Positions 49,805 through 56,258 of a stretch of 64,000 nucleotides of DNA are shown here, in pieces (the first letter of the stretch is position 1; each line of letters begins with the position of its first letter). Where the stretch lies: NCBI RefSeq assembly GCF_011752065.1, contig NZ_JAAIJY010000006.1, forward strand, positions 62,001 to 126,000, given 5' to 3'. This DNA is from Actinomyces sp. ZJ308. GTDB lineage: Bacteria > Actinomycetota > Actinomycetes > Actinomycetales > Actinomycetaceae. The position numbers were made by a program, and so were the translations under genes. Below the pieces are notes generated by a model. That model was not told the origin of the DNA. It saw only the letters and a program-made list of their open reading frames with translations, and did not search any database.

Positions 49805-50109
49805 TCTTCCTGCGCCTGTGGGGCCGTCGGTCGCCCGTCTCTCGCGGCCGGGGACATTCGACGCCGTCGGGGACCTTTCCTCCCGGGCGGGGGCGTTCCA
49901 CCCGGCCGGGGACAGAAATTCCGTCCCCGTACGCGTGACATGTCCCCGTCTGATCGGGCGATGCACCCGGCCGCGCGGAATGTCCCCGCCGGTGGTCGGG
50001 GCGGGCTCTGTCGGCAGCGGCTTGTCCTGCTGCCCGTCCGCGGTCGCCGGCCGGTGGGACGGTGAGGAAATCAGTACCGCGGCGACGTCGAATCGGGGAC
50101 CATGGATCC
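49805..50109. repeat. Intergenic GGGGACAGAA-type repeat, copy 2
   Basis: The 305-base gap before the amylosucrase-like gene is filled with GGGGAC or GTCCCC words (about 49851, 49869, 49908, 49924, 49941 and 49980). The core 49907-49929 is CGGGGACAGAA with an inverted TTCCGTCCCCG (one mismatch), then ACGCGTGACATGTCCCCGTC. The same order GGGGACAGAA, TTCTGTCCCCG, ACGCGTG, GTCCCCGTC occurs at 31088-31130. No promoter is evident. Confidence 0.6.
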
Positions 50110-52113
50110 ATGAGCGCCACCCCTCCCCTCCCGTCCTCCCTCGACGACATCGTCTTCCACGTCCTGGACCCGCTTGAGGCCGCCGAGCGCGACATCTTCC
50201 TCACGCGCGTGGAGGCCTGGTACCCCGACCTCATCGACGGGCTCACCACCCTTTACGGGGACACTGCCGAGGACACGGCCCTCAACCTGCTGGCCCTGGC
50301 CGCCCGGGCCTACGTGGAGCGTGAGCACGAGCTGCGCCGCCTGGACCTGGCCCGCACCCTCGACCCCGCCTGGGCCCAGCACCCCGGCCGCGTCGGCTAC
50401 GCCGCCTACACCGAGCGCTTCGCCGGCACCCTGCGCGGCGTGGAGGACCGCATCGACTACCTGCGTGAGCTCGGCGTCAGCTACCTCCACCTCATGCCCC
50501 TGCTCACCCCGCGCCCCGGCGACTCCGACGGCGGCTACGCGGTGGCCGACTACCGCACCGTGCGTCCGGACCTGGGCACCATGGATGACCTCGAGCACCT
50601 GGCCGGCGAGCTGCGCGCCGAGGGTATCTCCCTGGTGGTGGACCTCGTCCTCAACCACGTGGCCGCCGAGCACGAGTGGGCGGCCCGGGCGCGCGCCGGC
50701 GAGCAGCGCTACCGCGACTACTTCCTCATCTTCCCCGACCGCACCGAGCCCGATGCCTACGAGCGCACCCTGCCGGAGGTCTTCCCCGACTTCGCCCCCG
50801 GCAACTTCACCTGGGACGAGGATGTCAGCGGCTGGGTGTGGACCACCTTCAACTCCTTCCAGTGGGACCTCAACTGGCGCAACCCACGCGTCATGGCCGA
50901 GTTCGCCGGGATCGTCCTGGATCTGGCCAACCGCGGCGTCGAGGTGCTGCGCCTGGGCGCCATCGCCTTCACCATCAAGCGCCTGGGCACCGACTGCCAG
51001 GGCCAGCCCGAGGTCCACGCCATCACCGAGGTGCTGCGCGCCCTGACCCGCATCGCATGCCCCGCCGTCGACCTCAAGGCCGAGGCGATCGTCGCCCCCA
51101 CCGAGCTCCTCCAGTACCTGGGCCAGGGCAAGTACACCGGCAAGGTCTCCGACCTGGCCTACCACAACTCCCTCATGGTCCAGATCTGGTCCATGCTCGC
51201 CGCGCGCGACACGACGCTGGCCGTCGAGGCGCTCCAGAGCCTGCCGGTCGAGCCGTCCACGGCCACCTGGATCACCTACCTGCGCTGCCACGACGACATC
51301 GGCTGGGCCATCGATGACGACGACGCGGCCGCCGTCGGCCTCAGCGGCTACGACCACCGGGCCTTCCTCGCGGACTGGTACAGCGGCGAGTATCCCTCCT
51401 CCGACGCCGCGGGCCTGGTCTTCCAGCACAACCCGGCCACCGGGGACCGGCGCATCGCCGGGACCGCGGCCTCACTCATCGGGATCGAGGCCGCCGCGGA
51501 GGCCTGGGAGGGCGTCACCGACGAGGCCCCCGAGCACGAGGTGGAGTCCTTGTGGACCTGGCGCGAGGAGCGGATCCACGCCCTGCGCATGGCTCACGCC
51601 ATCCTCTACGGCTGGGGCGGCGTCCCCGTCCTGTGGAGCGGCGACGAGCTCGCCCAGCCCAACGACCCCAACTGGGACACCGAGCCCGGCCACGAGGCCG
51701 ACTCGCGCTGGGCCGGGCGGCCCCGGCTCGACGAGACGCGGATGGCCAACCGGCACGACCGCTCCACCGTCGAGGGGCGCGTCTTCACCGACCTGGCCCA
51801 CATGGCGCGGGTGCGCGCGGGCCTGCCCCAGCTCGACGCCGTCGTGCGCACCCAGGTCCAGGACGTCGACGACCCCGGCGTGCTGGTGATCTACCGCGAC
51901 CACCCGCGCGGCAGCTTCGTGGGCGTGTACAACGTGACGCCGCAGTGGCGCTCGGTCGCCGCCGACCAGCTCGCCCGGCTCGGCGTCATGGGGGCCACCG
52001 ACGTCCTGACCGACACGATCCCCTTCGGGTCCACCTCGCTGGAGGGGGCAGGCGACGGCCGCGTGCCGGTGCCGCCCTACGCCGCCTGGTGGCTGGTGCG
52101 CCCCACCGACTGA
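50110..52113 (+). CDS. Amylosucrase-like GH13 protein lacking the nucleophile Asp
   Basis: ATG 50110 gives 667 residues, the amylosucrase length. Amylosucrase makes alpha-1,4-glucan from sucrose. [34 protein letters not shown], acid/base Glu325 in KAEAIV, and transition-state Asp395 in LRCHDDIGW are present, as are the later RWAGRPR and NRHDRST segments. The nucleophile expected in LRMDAVAF-type sequence is Gly283 (LRLGAIAF); codon GGC at 50956-50958 is one change from GAC. As read it should not hydrolyse or transfer by the normal double-displacement route. It may be a dead or neofunctionalised enzyme, a recent mutation, or a sequence error. Confidence 0.85.
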
Positions 52114-52271
52114 CGGCCGCCGAGATCGCAGGAATCGGAGCCCGGGCACGGGGCCGCGCCGTCGGCCTCGACACCGTCATTGAGACGATGCATCAGACCG
52201 GCGAGGATATGCTCGCCAAGTACAAGGAGACTTTCCGCGGCGGCCTGGCCGTCAACGTCGTAGAGTGCTGA
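52110..52271 (+). pseudogene. 3' remnant of L-serine ammonia-lyase (sdaA)
   Basis: The frame from the amylosucrase stop to TGA 52271 reads [20 protein letters not shown], then [20 protein letters not shown] and [13 protein letters not shown]. This is the C-terminal end of iron-sulfur L-serine ammonia-lyases, whose last 50 residues have VIETM...TGxDMxxKYxETxxGGLA. No start, no catalytic domain and no Fe-S cysteines other than the last residue remain. It abuts the amylosucrase stop, so a deletion fused the two. It is almost certainly not expressed as an enzyme. Confidence 0.8.
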
Positions 52272-52283
52272 GAAACCGGTGTT

Positions 52284-54212
52284 TCACTTCGTAGCGATAG
52301 ACCGGCGCAGCATTTTAGCCTCCTCTTTCCGGCCAAAACCTTCAAGGAGATCAGCCGCCTTGTCAACTTCTTCCGTTGCTTCTTTTAAGTCTATGAGATC
52401 TGACTGATCTTGATCACTTTTGTAAAACATGCCACTATAACCTGATGCGCCGTCTAATAAATAGTATAAGTTATCATAGATTTCCGTAGAGACTAGAGTT
52501 CTCCATAGGACTACAGTGCGAAATCTAAAGAATCGTTTAAAATTCTGTTTCTCAAACTCCCTATACATGTCGCAGGTAATTGGCTTCTTTAGAATGTCAA
52601 AAAGCCACTCTAGTGCGCCTCCATCGCGGATATTCATGAGAGTCATATTTAATGGTCTGCTATCAAACTTATATATCATTTCCTTTACTTTACCTGCTTC
52701 AAACTTCAGTAAATCAGAGTCGTATTGCAGTGGCTCATCAACAAATTCGTCTTTCGACGTTAGGTCGACAGGTTCAATTTCCTGCGTTAAGTACTCGGCC
52801 AGCTTCAGATCGAAAGATTCCTTGTTTTTGAATAGAGTTACAAACAGGTTTGCAATCCGCAAGTTATATGAAGTGAACTTCAGAAGATTTTTATAGGATC
52901 CATTTGGCAAGCTCTCTCCAGAGATTATCTTCCGCTCAGCAAATGAAAATGCTAGTTTCCTCAACATGCATTCATCTCCGATCGGGTCGGCGTAGGGGTT
53001 GAGATAAGGCATGGCTTCAACGATATTAATGTTTAGCTGAGGATTCCCGAAATTCAAAAATGATGCTGTGAAGATGGCTTCAATCAACTGTTTTGCAGCG
53101 TACTCTTTCGTTGCCTGGTGCTTAATATTGTCGATCGAAGATACTAGAACTCTCAAGTCCTTTTGGCTGAGGTTAATCTTGCCCTCATGAATTTTGTAAG
53201 AAATTTCGTTGTATGTGACTGCAGGTATTACCTGCACTGTTTTATCGAACTTACTACTCTCAGGTGTGAGTAGGCGGATGCGAGAAACTTGATCCTCGCT
53301 GCAAACCGTGAGTTTTTCCGAGTTTTTACTATTCAAGTTGCCGCTTGCATTCTGGTGTATTTCGACAGTGTTTGAAATTAACTGAAATAGCTCGTTAATT
53401 GTTCTCGGGTCGTCAGTTTCTTCAAGGTGCTCAATCAGCGCCTGGAGGCGCCCTGAAAGGAAGTCATAAATTGGGCCAGAGGAAATTTTTGGTGGAGAAC
53501 TTAAAAGAGTATAGATGGCGGAATCGATGGGGCTGAGATTGTTAAGAATGTACTTTAGATAATCGCTGTGGTCCTCTGGTTTGATTGCCTCATACTCAAG
53601 CAAGTAATACTTGTGCCATGCATATGAGTCATAGGGGGTGGTTGATTTACTGAGAACCCCATTCACAAAGGCATGCCATTTTTTGATTTTATGCTTTCTT
53701 ATGCGAAATCGAATGTACTGCGGACGAATTATCGAGATAGTGTTAAGGATGTTTAAAAGCAGAAGGGAAGAGATTATTCCAAATAGAGACCACCAGAGTG
53801 GTATAACAACGATTGATGCTAATGCAGGAATCTCAAAATAAATGATCGGAAGTAAGAATAGAAGAGAAACCCCTATCTTGAAAGGCAGTCCTGAAATGAT
53901 TCTAGTGAAAGCTGAGTGAATTAAAAAGAAAGAGTTAACCTCAACACCTAAGTATGTGTTGTTTCTGTTGAAATTATCCTTAGATGTTCCTATCATTATA
54001 TTTGCCGTAAAAGTCAGTATCGCAAGCAGTCCAACTGAATTTGTAAGCATTGTTCGAATCATGATATTATGTTCGTAATCTGGGATGAGAGTGGGCCAAG
54101 TATACAGCATTATGAATAATGCTATCGTACCGCCAATAAGCGCCATCAAGGTTGGGTTATCTTTGATGTAATCCCAGCATTTGCTGTACCATGGTTCTTT
54201 GGGTGTTGTCAT
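52284..54212 (-). CDS. AT-rich, probably acquired membrane protein of unknown function
   Basis: ATG 54212 (GAGG five bases upstream) gives 642 residues. The gene is strikingly AT-rich and uses AT-ending codons, unlike every neighbour. Four hydrophobic segments lie at about 21-42, 57-77, 112-130 and 132-162, with WPTLIPDYEHN between the first two. A large soluble part of 470 residues follows, starting RFRIRKHKIKKWH and rich in Lys, Glu, Asn and helical character; no nuclease, ATPase or kinase motif is evident. It lies alone between the sdaA remnant and the terminator of the next operon. I do not recognise the family; anti-phage or membrane-stress roles are only guesses. Confidence 0.72.
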   Translation of the reverse strand: MTTPKEPWYSKCWDYIKDNPTLMALIGGTIALFIMLYTWPTLIPDYEHNIMIRTMLTNSVGLLAILTFTANIMIGTSKDNFNRNNTYLGVEVNSFFLIHSAFTRIISGLPFKIGVSLLFLLPIIYFEIPALASIVVIPLWWSLFGIISSLLLLNILNTISIIRPQYIRFRIRKHKIKKWHAFVNGVLSKSTTPYDSYAWHKYYLLEYEAIKPEDHSDYLKYILNNLSPIDSAIYTLLSSPPKISSGPIYDFLSGRLQALIEHLEETDDPRTINELFQLISNTVEIHQNASGNLNSKNSEKLTVCSEDQVSRIRLLTPESSKFDKTVQVIPAVTYNEISYKIHEGKINLSQKDLRVLVSSIDNIKHQATKEYAAKQLIEAIFTASFLNFGNPQLNINIVEAMPYLNPYADPIGDECMLRKLAFSFAERKIISGESLPNGSYKNLLKFTSYNLRIANLFVTLFKNKESFDLKLAEYLTQEIEPVDLTSKDEFVDEPLQYDSDLLKFEAGKVKEMIYKFDSRPLNMTLMNIRDGGALEWLFDILKKPITCDMYREFEKQNFKRFFRFRTVVLWRTLVSTEIYDNLYYLLDGASGYSGMFYKSDQDQSDLIDLKEATEEVDKAADLLEGFGRKEEAKMLRRSIATK

Positions 54213-54329
54213 TTGTTTCCTCGTCCGCTTGATTGCCTCGAACTTTTCTTCATGTTGAGGTGTGTCATATGGTAGCGCAAATTTTATCTTCAGTGAAGAT
54301 TGAATATAGTTGAAAATGTTAAAATAGAT

Positions 54330-54358
54330 GGGGGCCGCAGCGTGATGCTGCGGCCCCC
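54330..54358 (-). terminator. Terminator of the lipoprotein / VTC cluster
   Basis: A 12-bp stem GGGGGCCGCAGC / GCTGCGGCCCCC with loop GTGAT. On the minus strand it is followed by ATCTATTTTAAC, a T-rich tail, so it ends the cluster upstream. The AT-rich gene begins 118 bases further on. Confidence 0.82.
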
Positions 54359-54387: not shown

Positions 54388-56169
54388 TCAGCTGCTCTGG
54401 GCGGTGCCGGACTGGCTGTTCGACTGACCGTTCTGGTTGCTCTGGTTGCCGGGCTGCTGGCCGCCACCGGGCTGGCCGCCGCTGGGCGGCTGGCCGCCCT
54501 GACCACCGGGGCCGCCCTGGCCACCGCCGCCCATGGGGCCGCCCATCCCGGATGACAGCGCCGAGGCCGTCCCCGTGGCCGAGCCGCCCGACGACGTCGC
54601 CACCGTGTACTCCTGGCCCTCGGTCAGCCCCAGCACGGTGATCGCCTCGGCCGTGAAGTCGACCTTGACGGAGGCCATCTGGGACCCGGAGGAGTCGGTG
54701 ACGGTGAGCGTGTCGCCCGCGGTCACCGACGGCGAGCCCGTCAGCCCCACGAGCTGGGTCTCCCCGTTGGCGTCCACCGACCCGTCCATGTTGCCGGCCT
54801 CGCCGGAGACCACCACGATCCCGCCCTTGACGTAGGCCGAGCCGTTGGAGTCGATGCCGTCCGAGGAGGCGTAGGAGACCTCCACCTCGCCGCCGCTGAT
54901 CGTCAGCACCGAGCCGTCGTCGGACTCGGAGTCCGCGTTCTCGTGGCCCTCGATGACGTGGTCGCCGTTGGAGGCGTTGATGCCGTCGTCGCCCGCCGCG
55001 ATGGACAGCTCGCCACCGGCCACGTTGATGAACGGGGCCTGAAGCCCCTCGTCGGCCGCGTCGATGGCGACGGTCCCGGAGTCCTGCGTGTAGCTCACGC
55101 CGGCATTGATGCCCTTGGGTGAGGGCGTGGTGGAGTCCGCGGTCGACTCCTGCCCGGGAGCCGCCTTCTCCTCAACGGTGGCGTTGGCCTGCCCGCCCCC
55201 GGCCGTGATCGTCAGCGTGGTGTCCTTGACGGTGACGTCGGTGATCGCTGAGATCGCGTCGTCGGAGGAGGTCAGCGTGATGCTCGCCTTGCCCAGGGAC
55301 ACGAAGCCCTTCGTCTTGTCGTCGCCCTCACTGGACTTCAGGCCGTCGCCTCCGGCCTCGACCGTCAGCGTCCCGGACTCGACCACCAGGTAGTCCTTGC
55401 CGCGCAGGCCGTCGTCGGCGGCCTTGACGCTGATCGTGGTGCTCCCGGTGATGATAAGGCCGTTCTTGGAGGAGATGCCGTCCTTGTAGGAGCCGGTCAC
55501 GTCCAGCGAGCCGGTCCCGGTGACGGTGAGCGTGTCCGAGGAGAACAGGGCCGCGGTGGCCTCCTGCCCGGAGGCGTAGGTGGCGCCGTCGGTCAGCGTG
55601 TTCTTGGAGTCCTTGGCCAGGACCACGATCGCGTTGCCGGCGTCCTGGATGTCGATGGCGGGGCCGTCCGAGCTCGTGATGCTCGCGCCGCTGAGGACCA
55701 GACGCACGTCGGCATCCGGGGCGTTGACGACGATCCGCCCGTCGGTCAGCTCCCCGCTGATGACGTAGGTGCCGCCGCTGCTGATGGTCACGGTGCCCCC
55801 GTCGACCTTCACGTTGCCCGACGACGACCCGCCGACCGAGGCCGACGAACCCGACAGGGTGATCGTGGTGGCCGACGACGTGTCCGTGGTCCCGGCGTCG
55901 TCCTCGGAGCTGGAGGCGTCCTCCACCGAGGCGTTGACGCCCAGGATGTCGGAGACGCTCGCACCGGTCGACGCCGTGGCCACCGATGAGGAGATCGTCG
56001 TCCACGTGGTCTCCGACTCGCTCGAGCCGGAGGCGCTCGCGTTGCCGGAGGCCGAGGAGGTCGAGCAGCCGGCCGCCAGGGCGAGCGCGGCCAGGACCGC
56101 GACGGCTCCGGTCGCGCGGCGGCGAAGTCGGGTCAGGGGCTTGGTCGTCATCGTCTTGGTGGTCTTCAT
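54388..56169 (-). CDS. Carbohydrate-binding-domain lipoprotein (DUF4353-like)
   Basis: ATG 56169 gives 593 residues. A lipobox LAAGC with Cys35 marks a lipoprotein. Ser/Ala-rich residues (36-110) precede repeated parallel-beta-helix-like strands such as GTVTISSGGTYVISG, ADVRLVLSGASITSSDGPAI and DGLRGKDYLVVESGTLTVEAGGDGL, the pattern of the DUF4353 carbohydrate-binding family. A small Ig-like segment (SPSVTAGDTLTVTDSSGSQM) and a Gly/Gln/Pro-rich tail end the protein. It is the last gene of the VTC/DUF4956 cluster, as in other bacteria where such proteins accompany VTC genes. Its ligand and role are unknown. Confidence 0.8.
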   Translation of the reverse strand: MKTTKTMTTKPLTRLRRRATGAVAVLAALALAAGCSTSSASGNASASGSSESETTWTTISSSVATASTGASVSDILGVNASVEDASSSEDDAGTTDTSSATTITLSGSSASVGGSSSGNVKVDGGTVTISSGGTYVISGELTDGRIVVNAPDADVRLVLSGASITSSDGPAIDIQDAGNAIVVLAKDSKNTLTDGATYASGQEATAALFSSDTLTVTGTGSLDVTGSYKDGISSKNGLIITGSTTISVKAADDGLRGKDYLVVESGTLTVEAGGDGLKSSEGDDKTKGFVSLGKASITLTSSDDAISAITDVTVKDTTLTITAGGGQANATVEEKAAPGQESTADSTTPSPKGINAGVSYTQDSGTVAIDAADEGLQAPFINVAGGELSIAAGDDGINASNGDHVIEGHENADSESDDGSVLTISGGEVEVSYASSDGIDSNGSAYVKGGIVVVSGEAGNMDGSVDANGETQLVGLTGSPSVTAGDTLTVTDSSGSQMASVKVDFTAEAITVLGLTEGQEYTVATSSGGSATGTASALSSGMGGPMGGGGQGGPGGQGGQPPSGGQPGGGQQPGNQSNQNGQSNSQSGTAQSS

Positions 56170-56196
56170 CGTTTCTGTTTCTCTTCTTCTCGGGTC

Positions 56197-56222
56197 CGGT
56201 TGATCGGATCGGTTGATCGGAT
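56197..56222. repeat. 13-bp tandem direct repeat CGGTTGATCGGAT x2
   Basis: Two identical units back to back, upstream of the lipoprotein start (28 bases). It may result from slippage or be a double regulator site. Confidence 0.5.
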
Positions 56223-56258
56223 CGTGGGTCGGGTCTGCGGATGGTCTGGGCGCGGCGC

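Follow-up and report, generated by a model that had tools for sequence, protein, structure and literature searches.

An AT-rich membrane-protein gene in a variable slot between two conserved genes of Actinomyces, with a possible role in conflict

A four-helix membrane protein with a role in defence is known in KwaA of the Kiwa system. Places in which accessory genes gather have been described as well. Integrase-free hotspots of horizontal gene transfer, flanked by core genes, were documented by Oliveira et al. (2017; PMC5635113), and the core defence hotspots cDHS1/2 are described in Pseudomonas aeruginosa (PMC10250203). Here we describe a slot in Actinomyces that is occupied, in the window (the whole 64-kb stretch of DNA that was analysed), by a single gene whose product we call P0001. 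Genomes are designated by G numbers, G000 being that of the window.

The P0001 gene covers positions 52284–54212 on the minus strand, with an ATG start and no internal stop. A first-pass annotation had described an AT-rich gene of 642 residues with AT-ending codons, and this was borne out, with the frame intact: its GC content is 40.4%, against 68.4% in the rest of the window, and its GC3 is 44%. Thirty-two open reading frames picked as probable genes have a mean GC3 of 90% (minimum 75%), and the codon adaptation of the P0001 gene to them is 0.137, compared with 0.677 for their own mean (s.d. 0.107, minimum 0.423); as these frames were chosen with a GC3 of at least 75%, the codon and GC3 contrast is partly selected. 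A scan of GC content in 1-kb windows, moved in steps of 100 over the whole 64 kb, is safer. All 1-kb windows below 60% GC start between 51701 and 53901, over the P0001 gene, in agreement with the claim that every other gene is high in GC. The AT-rich leader noted at the same time is found at 54213–54329 (minus strand; GC content 35%), where it separates the start codon from the terminator of the upstream gene, and presumably holds the gene's own promoter. The annotation left the strand unnamed; that the same slot is found in relatives could not be seen from one sequence.

The gene lies between two convergent conserved genes. The left flank is a gene for a Cthe_2159 carbohydrate-binding domain protein (54388–56250, minus strand; PF14262, 1.8e-75), where 56250 is the end used in searches, not a mapped start codon. 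Its terminator, a 12-pair hairpin at 54330–54358 on the minus strand, had been recognised in the first reading and forms the left edge of the slot. The right edge is the stop codon of sdaA. A 3′ remnant of sdaA had been claimed in the window, and it is real but short: ~37 codons at 52158–52271 (plus strand), identified by sequence match to A. oris sdaA and near-identical in frame to the end of that intact gene. The remnant adjoins an alpha-amylase-family gene with an amylosucrase C-terminal-like domain (50062–52113, plus strand; 93.8% identical in DNA to its A. oris counterpart). An intact sdaA stands between the slot and the alpha-amylase-family gene in A. oris CCUG 34288 (G020). sdaA is cut down to 3′ pieces in G001, G019 and G032 too, and 14 of 49 genomes of the genus gave no match to the A. 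oris SdaA protein.

For comparison with this locus, the sequence that follows the Cthe_2159 gene was taken from 41 other genomes of the genus (43 loci against 18 reference proteins); several of the 41 stretches end at contig ends, and some genomes have sdaA elsewhere. Twelve close species have a Cthe_2159 protein 86–100% identical to that of the window. The hairpin is present in all 12, imperfectly in G031 (read by eye), and the sequences diverge directly after it. They also diverge directly before the sdaA stop codon in 10 of the 12 (by eye), G045 having no sdaA match and the slot of G031 being broken by contig ends. The “typical insertion site” of the earlier reading is thereby supported, and can be narrowed to the slot bounded by the terminator hairpin and the stop codon of sdaA.

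The slots of these 12 species fall into five kinds by content, apart from one in which none was recognised. The P0001 family is found in G000, G020 and G014, and an AT-rich membrane protein of ~255 residues in G018 and G031. A 236-residue putative membrane protein is accompanied by a MerR gene and a metallo-beta-lactamase-fold gene in G021, G023 and G040; G039 has the MerR and metallo-beta-lactamase-fold genes without the 236-residue protein. GmrSD_N and HipA genes lie in G022 (Pfam: GmrSD_N 9.9e-28, HipA_C 9.9e-46), and G045 carries a 267-residue protein without Pfam match, a relative of which is on the sdaA-side contig of G031. No cargo was recognised in G001. Many more distant species have an alpha-amylase-family gene in the slot region.

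Defence-type matches in the slots of some species comprise GmrSD_N, HipA and AAA_21 domains and candidate PADLOC models, with no complete established system shown. A HipA-like gene occurs in 15 of the 41 fetched genomes, 12 of these 15 also having a GmrSD_N-like gene (Pfam covered the G022 copies only), and the two are common neighbours downstream of the Cthe_2159 gene (e.g., L036:373-3224). Together they may form a unit of restriction or toxin type. ATPases of the AAA_21 “putative AbiEii toxin” type were seen at L072:1700-2983 (G025) and L080:1481-2710 (G010); that of G025 has a Pfam E-value of 3.8e-28, and its best PADLOC match is the candidate model HEC-01A (3e-117). Another candidate model, PDC-M55C, was matched among slot genes at 9.2e-44.

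The second AT-rich membrane family (L039:386-1159 in G018, 257 residues; L046:254-1012 in G031, 252 residues) has a mutual identity of 34%, and the flank proteins of both species are 90–91% identical to those of the window. Its Pfam matches are all sub-threshold, the best being DUF373 with E 0.00048 for the G031 copy. Beside this cassette in G031, the contig end (L046:1-70) carries a short decayed piece resembling the last sdaA codons with bases altered, and the intact sdaA end is on another contig, L045. The latter also has a second, partial copy of flank sequence and open reading frames that we take to be transposase-like, which suggests that an insertion element invaded the G031 slot.

The P0001 gene had been called an orphan. 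It has at least five relatives, one of them outside the genus, so that the word holds only in the sense that none is of known function. Of 49 Actinomyces genomes, five have a member of the family by profile search (G000, G014, G020, G025, G026); a single-protein search of the genus had given 4 of 49, missing the G025 copy. In overlapping wider samples, also searched by profile, there was no further relative in 213 genomes of the taxonomic family, none besides the window's own in 394 genomes of the class, one more in 396 genomes of the order (G863), and none besides P0001 itself at a convincing E-value in 396 genomes of the phylum. Weak matches in 11 order genomes (E 0.002–0.8), 9 phylum genomes (E 0.01–1) and three genus genomes (E 0.004–0.06), each covering fewer than 105 profile positions, were set aside as chance. 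Two further scans of genome collections gave no match in one and a single match, to A. oris CCUG 34288, in the other. No relative was found in phage records, plasmid records or IMG/VR, and thus no carrier is known.

The relatives are 18–32% identical to P0001, with the A. oris CCUG 34288 copy at ~32%. H365, T368, W536, L537, T546 and W570 (P0001 numbering) are invariant in the six alignment rows, and the family has in common a YxG motif after the second helix, and a His-x-x-Thr motif and two Trp toward the C-terminus. The copies of G000, G020 and G014, in high-GC genomes, have a GC3 of 39–44%, compared with 68–85% for those of G025, G026 and G863. All five Actinomyces copies sit downstream of the Cthe_2159 gene, in the same orientation relative to it; the other neighbour is sdaA, or the alpha-amylase-family gene in G000 and G025, which have a reduced sdaA or none. 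Those of G026 and G025 adjoin GmrSD_N/HipA-like genes. A frameshift divides the copy of G025, which indicates that a gene of this type is dispensable there. Directly after it lies a Phd/YefM-type antitoxin-like frame (L072:10099-10422; PF02604, 1.2e-08), and the HipA-like gene of this slot region is split as well.

The relative outside the genus, in G863, belongs to another family of the same order. It has 778 residues (E 7.5e-27), was found in 1 of 47 genomes of that family, and stands by itself, flanked by a convergent pair of genes that are presumably GntR-like and MlrC-like. In both genera, therefore, the P0001 family sits between convergent genes. Nine other genomes of G863's genus had no P0001 relative within the fetched stretches; the GntR-like neighbour was seen in one of these stretches, that of G1291, and not in the other eight. 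In G1291 the counterparts of the two neighbours are ~120 bases apart with no P0001 relative between them. This single empty site is not pristine, as the GntR-like gene of G1291 is without an internal stretch.

The first-pass annotation had predicted four N-terminal helices followed by about 470 soluble residues without recognised motifs. Hydropathy and AlphaFold2 agree on the N-terminal membrane helices, modelled at residues ~20–42, 50–81, 109–127 and 129–162. The remaining ~480 residues are modelled as helices only (six alignment rows, mean pLDDT 64.8), and modelling the soluble part alone again gave an all-helical structure at similarly low confidence (mean pLDDT 61.7). Searches of P0001 and its relatives gave no significant match in Pfam, NCBIfam, PADLOC, PHROGs or PDB sequences. 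The best Pfam score of P0001 is to DUF4097 (E 0.017), below the cut-off of that family. The PADLOC scan took in four family members and had no match for P0001 (E up to 10) or the G020, G026 and G863 members (E up to 0.01). Foldseek found no PDB match at E 0.001 or less for the P0001 models, and no BFVD match at that threshold for the full-length model, the only one compared there. With VIA-align the PDB look-alikes of the models were generic helical bundles and designed repeats with best Z of 9.6 and 10.4, values that helical models can also attain by chance; the pLDDT of the models is 62–65.

Just behind the second membrane helix, P0001 has a short motif reminiscent of the DUF2254 membrane proteins (PF10011). 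Kinship was not supported: hhalign with a four-sequence DUF2254 alignment gave a probability of 0.3% (E 0.18), the profile alignment picking 25 columns at this motif. No Pfam match to DUF2254 was obtained for P0001 (E up to 10), for the G020, G014, G026 and G025 members (E up to 1) or for that of G863 (E up to 0.01).

What might such a protein do? The first-pass annotation had offered, as a guess, a membrane effector for phage defence or competition. We tentatively favor a stand-alone conflict factor, a single-gene, membrane-anchored helical protein that most likely serves in phage defence. The four-helix part would be an effector or anchor. The all-helical soluble part, possibly a repeat-like scaffold, might bind a phage-derived or phage-altered partner and, once bound, switch the membrane part; the cell would then stop growing, or its membrane lose integrity, before phage could be released. 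Pointers to a conflict role are the patchy presence, the lone gene, the strong divergence at a fixed site and the defence-type genes in some slots. Against defence stand the four members without a PADLOC match, the absence of relatives from phage and plasmid records and IMG/VR, the low-confidence fold models, whose look-alikes are within the range of chance, and the broken copy in G025. Moreover, the slot region also holds metabolic genes, and the company of the gene is thus weak evidence for such a role.

That same company, namely the alpha-amylase-family genes and the MerR/metallo-beta-lactamase cassette, would suit a doubtful yet still plausible alternative, an accessory envelope or stress protein without conflict role, for example a niche membrane scaffold, gained and lost with the slot. 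Against this, proteins of the P0001 family are 18–32% identical at the same site, unlike the MerR/lactamase cassette, which shows 78–97% identity in species of the same clade: the three genes of the cassette in G021 and G023 share 92–97% protein identity with those of G040, and the two in G039 share 78 and 90%.

Somewhat less probable, in our estimate an unlikely explanation, is a membrane protein of immunity or self-recognition that shields its carrier from a bacteriocin or toxin secreted by neighbours and has diversified since such toxins differ between strains. A lone membrane protein with strongly diverged homologues in the same slot would be expected of it, as would near species with different slot contents, and the short membrane proteins of G018 and G031, the other such family in this slot, present a similar picture (34% identity). 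No secreted-toxin gene was recognised beside any of the six members, however, when their neighbourhoods were read by eye, and at ~480 residues the soluble part exceeds what is usual in immunity proteins. The neighbours that can be recognised (G025, G026) are GmrSD_N/HipA-like genes and a Phd/YefM-type antitoxin, which act inside the cell. We rate an anti-phage role of P0001 above one in toxin immunity.

The P0001 gene makes up, by itself, an accessory cassette in a variable slot; in its place related Actinomyces have diverged relatives, genes of other families or no recognised cargo. The foreign character first read from composition is supported independently of composition by the five carriers among 49 genomes of the genus and by the different contents that close species have at this position; the gene is not conserved in all relatives, and housekeeping homology was not found. 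The cassette of the window has one plausible gene and no integrase-sized second gene. Neither an integrase or transposase nor end repeats of 14 nt or more were found in this particular cassette, and a tRNA-targeting integrase was set aside, the two tRNAs of the window lying near 15 kb.

Between the window and A. oris CCUG 34288 the main collinear flanking pieces have 81–94% DNA identity and the cargo proteins ~32%. Homology of the right, sdaA-side flank extends 43 bases into the 3′ end of the cargo: the last 43 bases of the P0001 gene (52284–52326, minus strand) lie inside a 180-column alignment with A. oris CCUG 34288 that is 87% identical in DNA. In a tree of the flank gene the nearest species carry unlike cargo, G000 with G045 (support 89/100) and G020 with G021 (93/92); with two starred among 11 inner branches, and five open, these pairs are moderately supported. 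Together with the GC3 split and the contrast to the MerR/lactamase cassette, the divergence of cargo against flanks and the unlike cargo in nearest species fit a repeated import of diverged cassettes by way of the conserved flanks better than slow divergence in place.

Divergence in place would make P0001 a fast-evolving local gene, descended from one ancestral cassette without swapping. The shared slot and orientation of the five Actinomyces copies agree with this, as does the 87% identical stretch, into which the G000 and G020 copies reach with their 3′ ends. We nevertheless regard it as improbable, because the nearest species of carriers hold unrelated contents and the copies split into AT-rich and GC-richer groups, the split pointing to several acquisitions. 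The cassette, then, is accessory and has been repeatedly exchanged, most likely via homologous recombination in the flanks. Import of this kind is suggested by the shared edges, by the lack of integrase and repeats at the window's cassette, and by the general model set out in PMC5635113; the cassette would move without integrase, its cargo being swapped between conserved flanks. That P0001 is instead the decaying passenger frame of a vanished mobile element, in line with its AT-rich foreign composition and the frameshifted G025 copy, is highly improbable given 642 intact codons in the window, long intact frames in G020, G014, G026 and G863, and residues shared at about 20% identity, which together argue for selection on the protein.

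A broader proposal, which we advance with greater reserve, is that P0001 founds a new family in which a four-helix membrane module and a non-enzymatic helical sensor make a single-gene defence, diversifying and swapped between Actinomyces species through one slot, which would thus be a natural library of candidate conflict genes. The slot itself gives an exact address for unknown accessory genes in Actinomyces, from the Cthe_2159 terminator to the sdaA stop codon. If P0001 does protect against phage, it would represent a new and apparently non-enzymatic single-gene defence family; if it does not, the slot still offers clean natural swaps for studying integrase-free cargo exchange. Among the matches listed in the literature searched, the slot and the P0001 protein are named nowhere, which does not establish their absence from print.

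By its general description, Kiwa KwaA resembles P0001, whose defence role is a guess, in having four membrane helices. P0001 differs in the absence of a partner gene, the long soluble part in the same chain and the lack of a PADLOC match (four members). As a place, the slot can be compared with the hotspots of Oliveira et al. (2017; PMC5635113). Like the Actinomyces slot they have fixed flanks, which could serve double homologous recombination, and cargo that differs between genomes; the same flanks with different contents were found here in the 12 close species. Hotspots of this kind, like the window's cassette, have no recognised mobile element; the search for integrase, transposase and end repeats covered the window's cassette, and the G031 slot has transposase-like frames. 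The Actinomyces slot differs in that it spans species of one genus and often holds only one to three genes. It is also unlike cDHS1/2 (PMC10250203) in its defence-type content, which was seen in some species and goes no further than candidate PADLOC models and domains of the GmrSD_N, HipA and ATPase kinds. Constant flanks, turnover of content and defence-type genes among many unknown genes are common to both. Taken together, the slot and the P0001 family are solid, and the kind of place is one already known.
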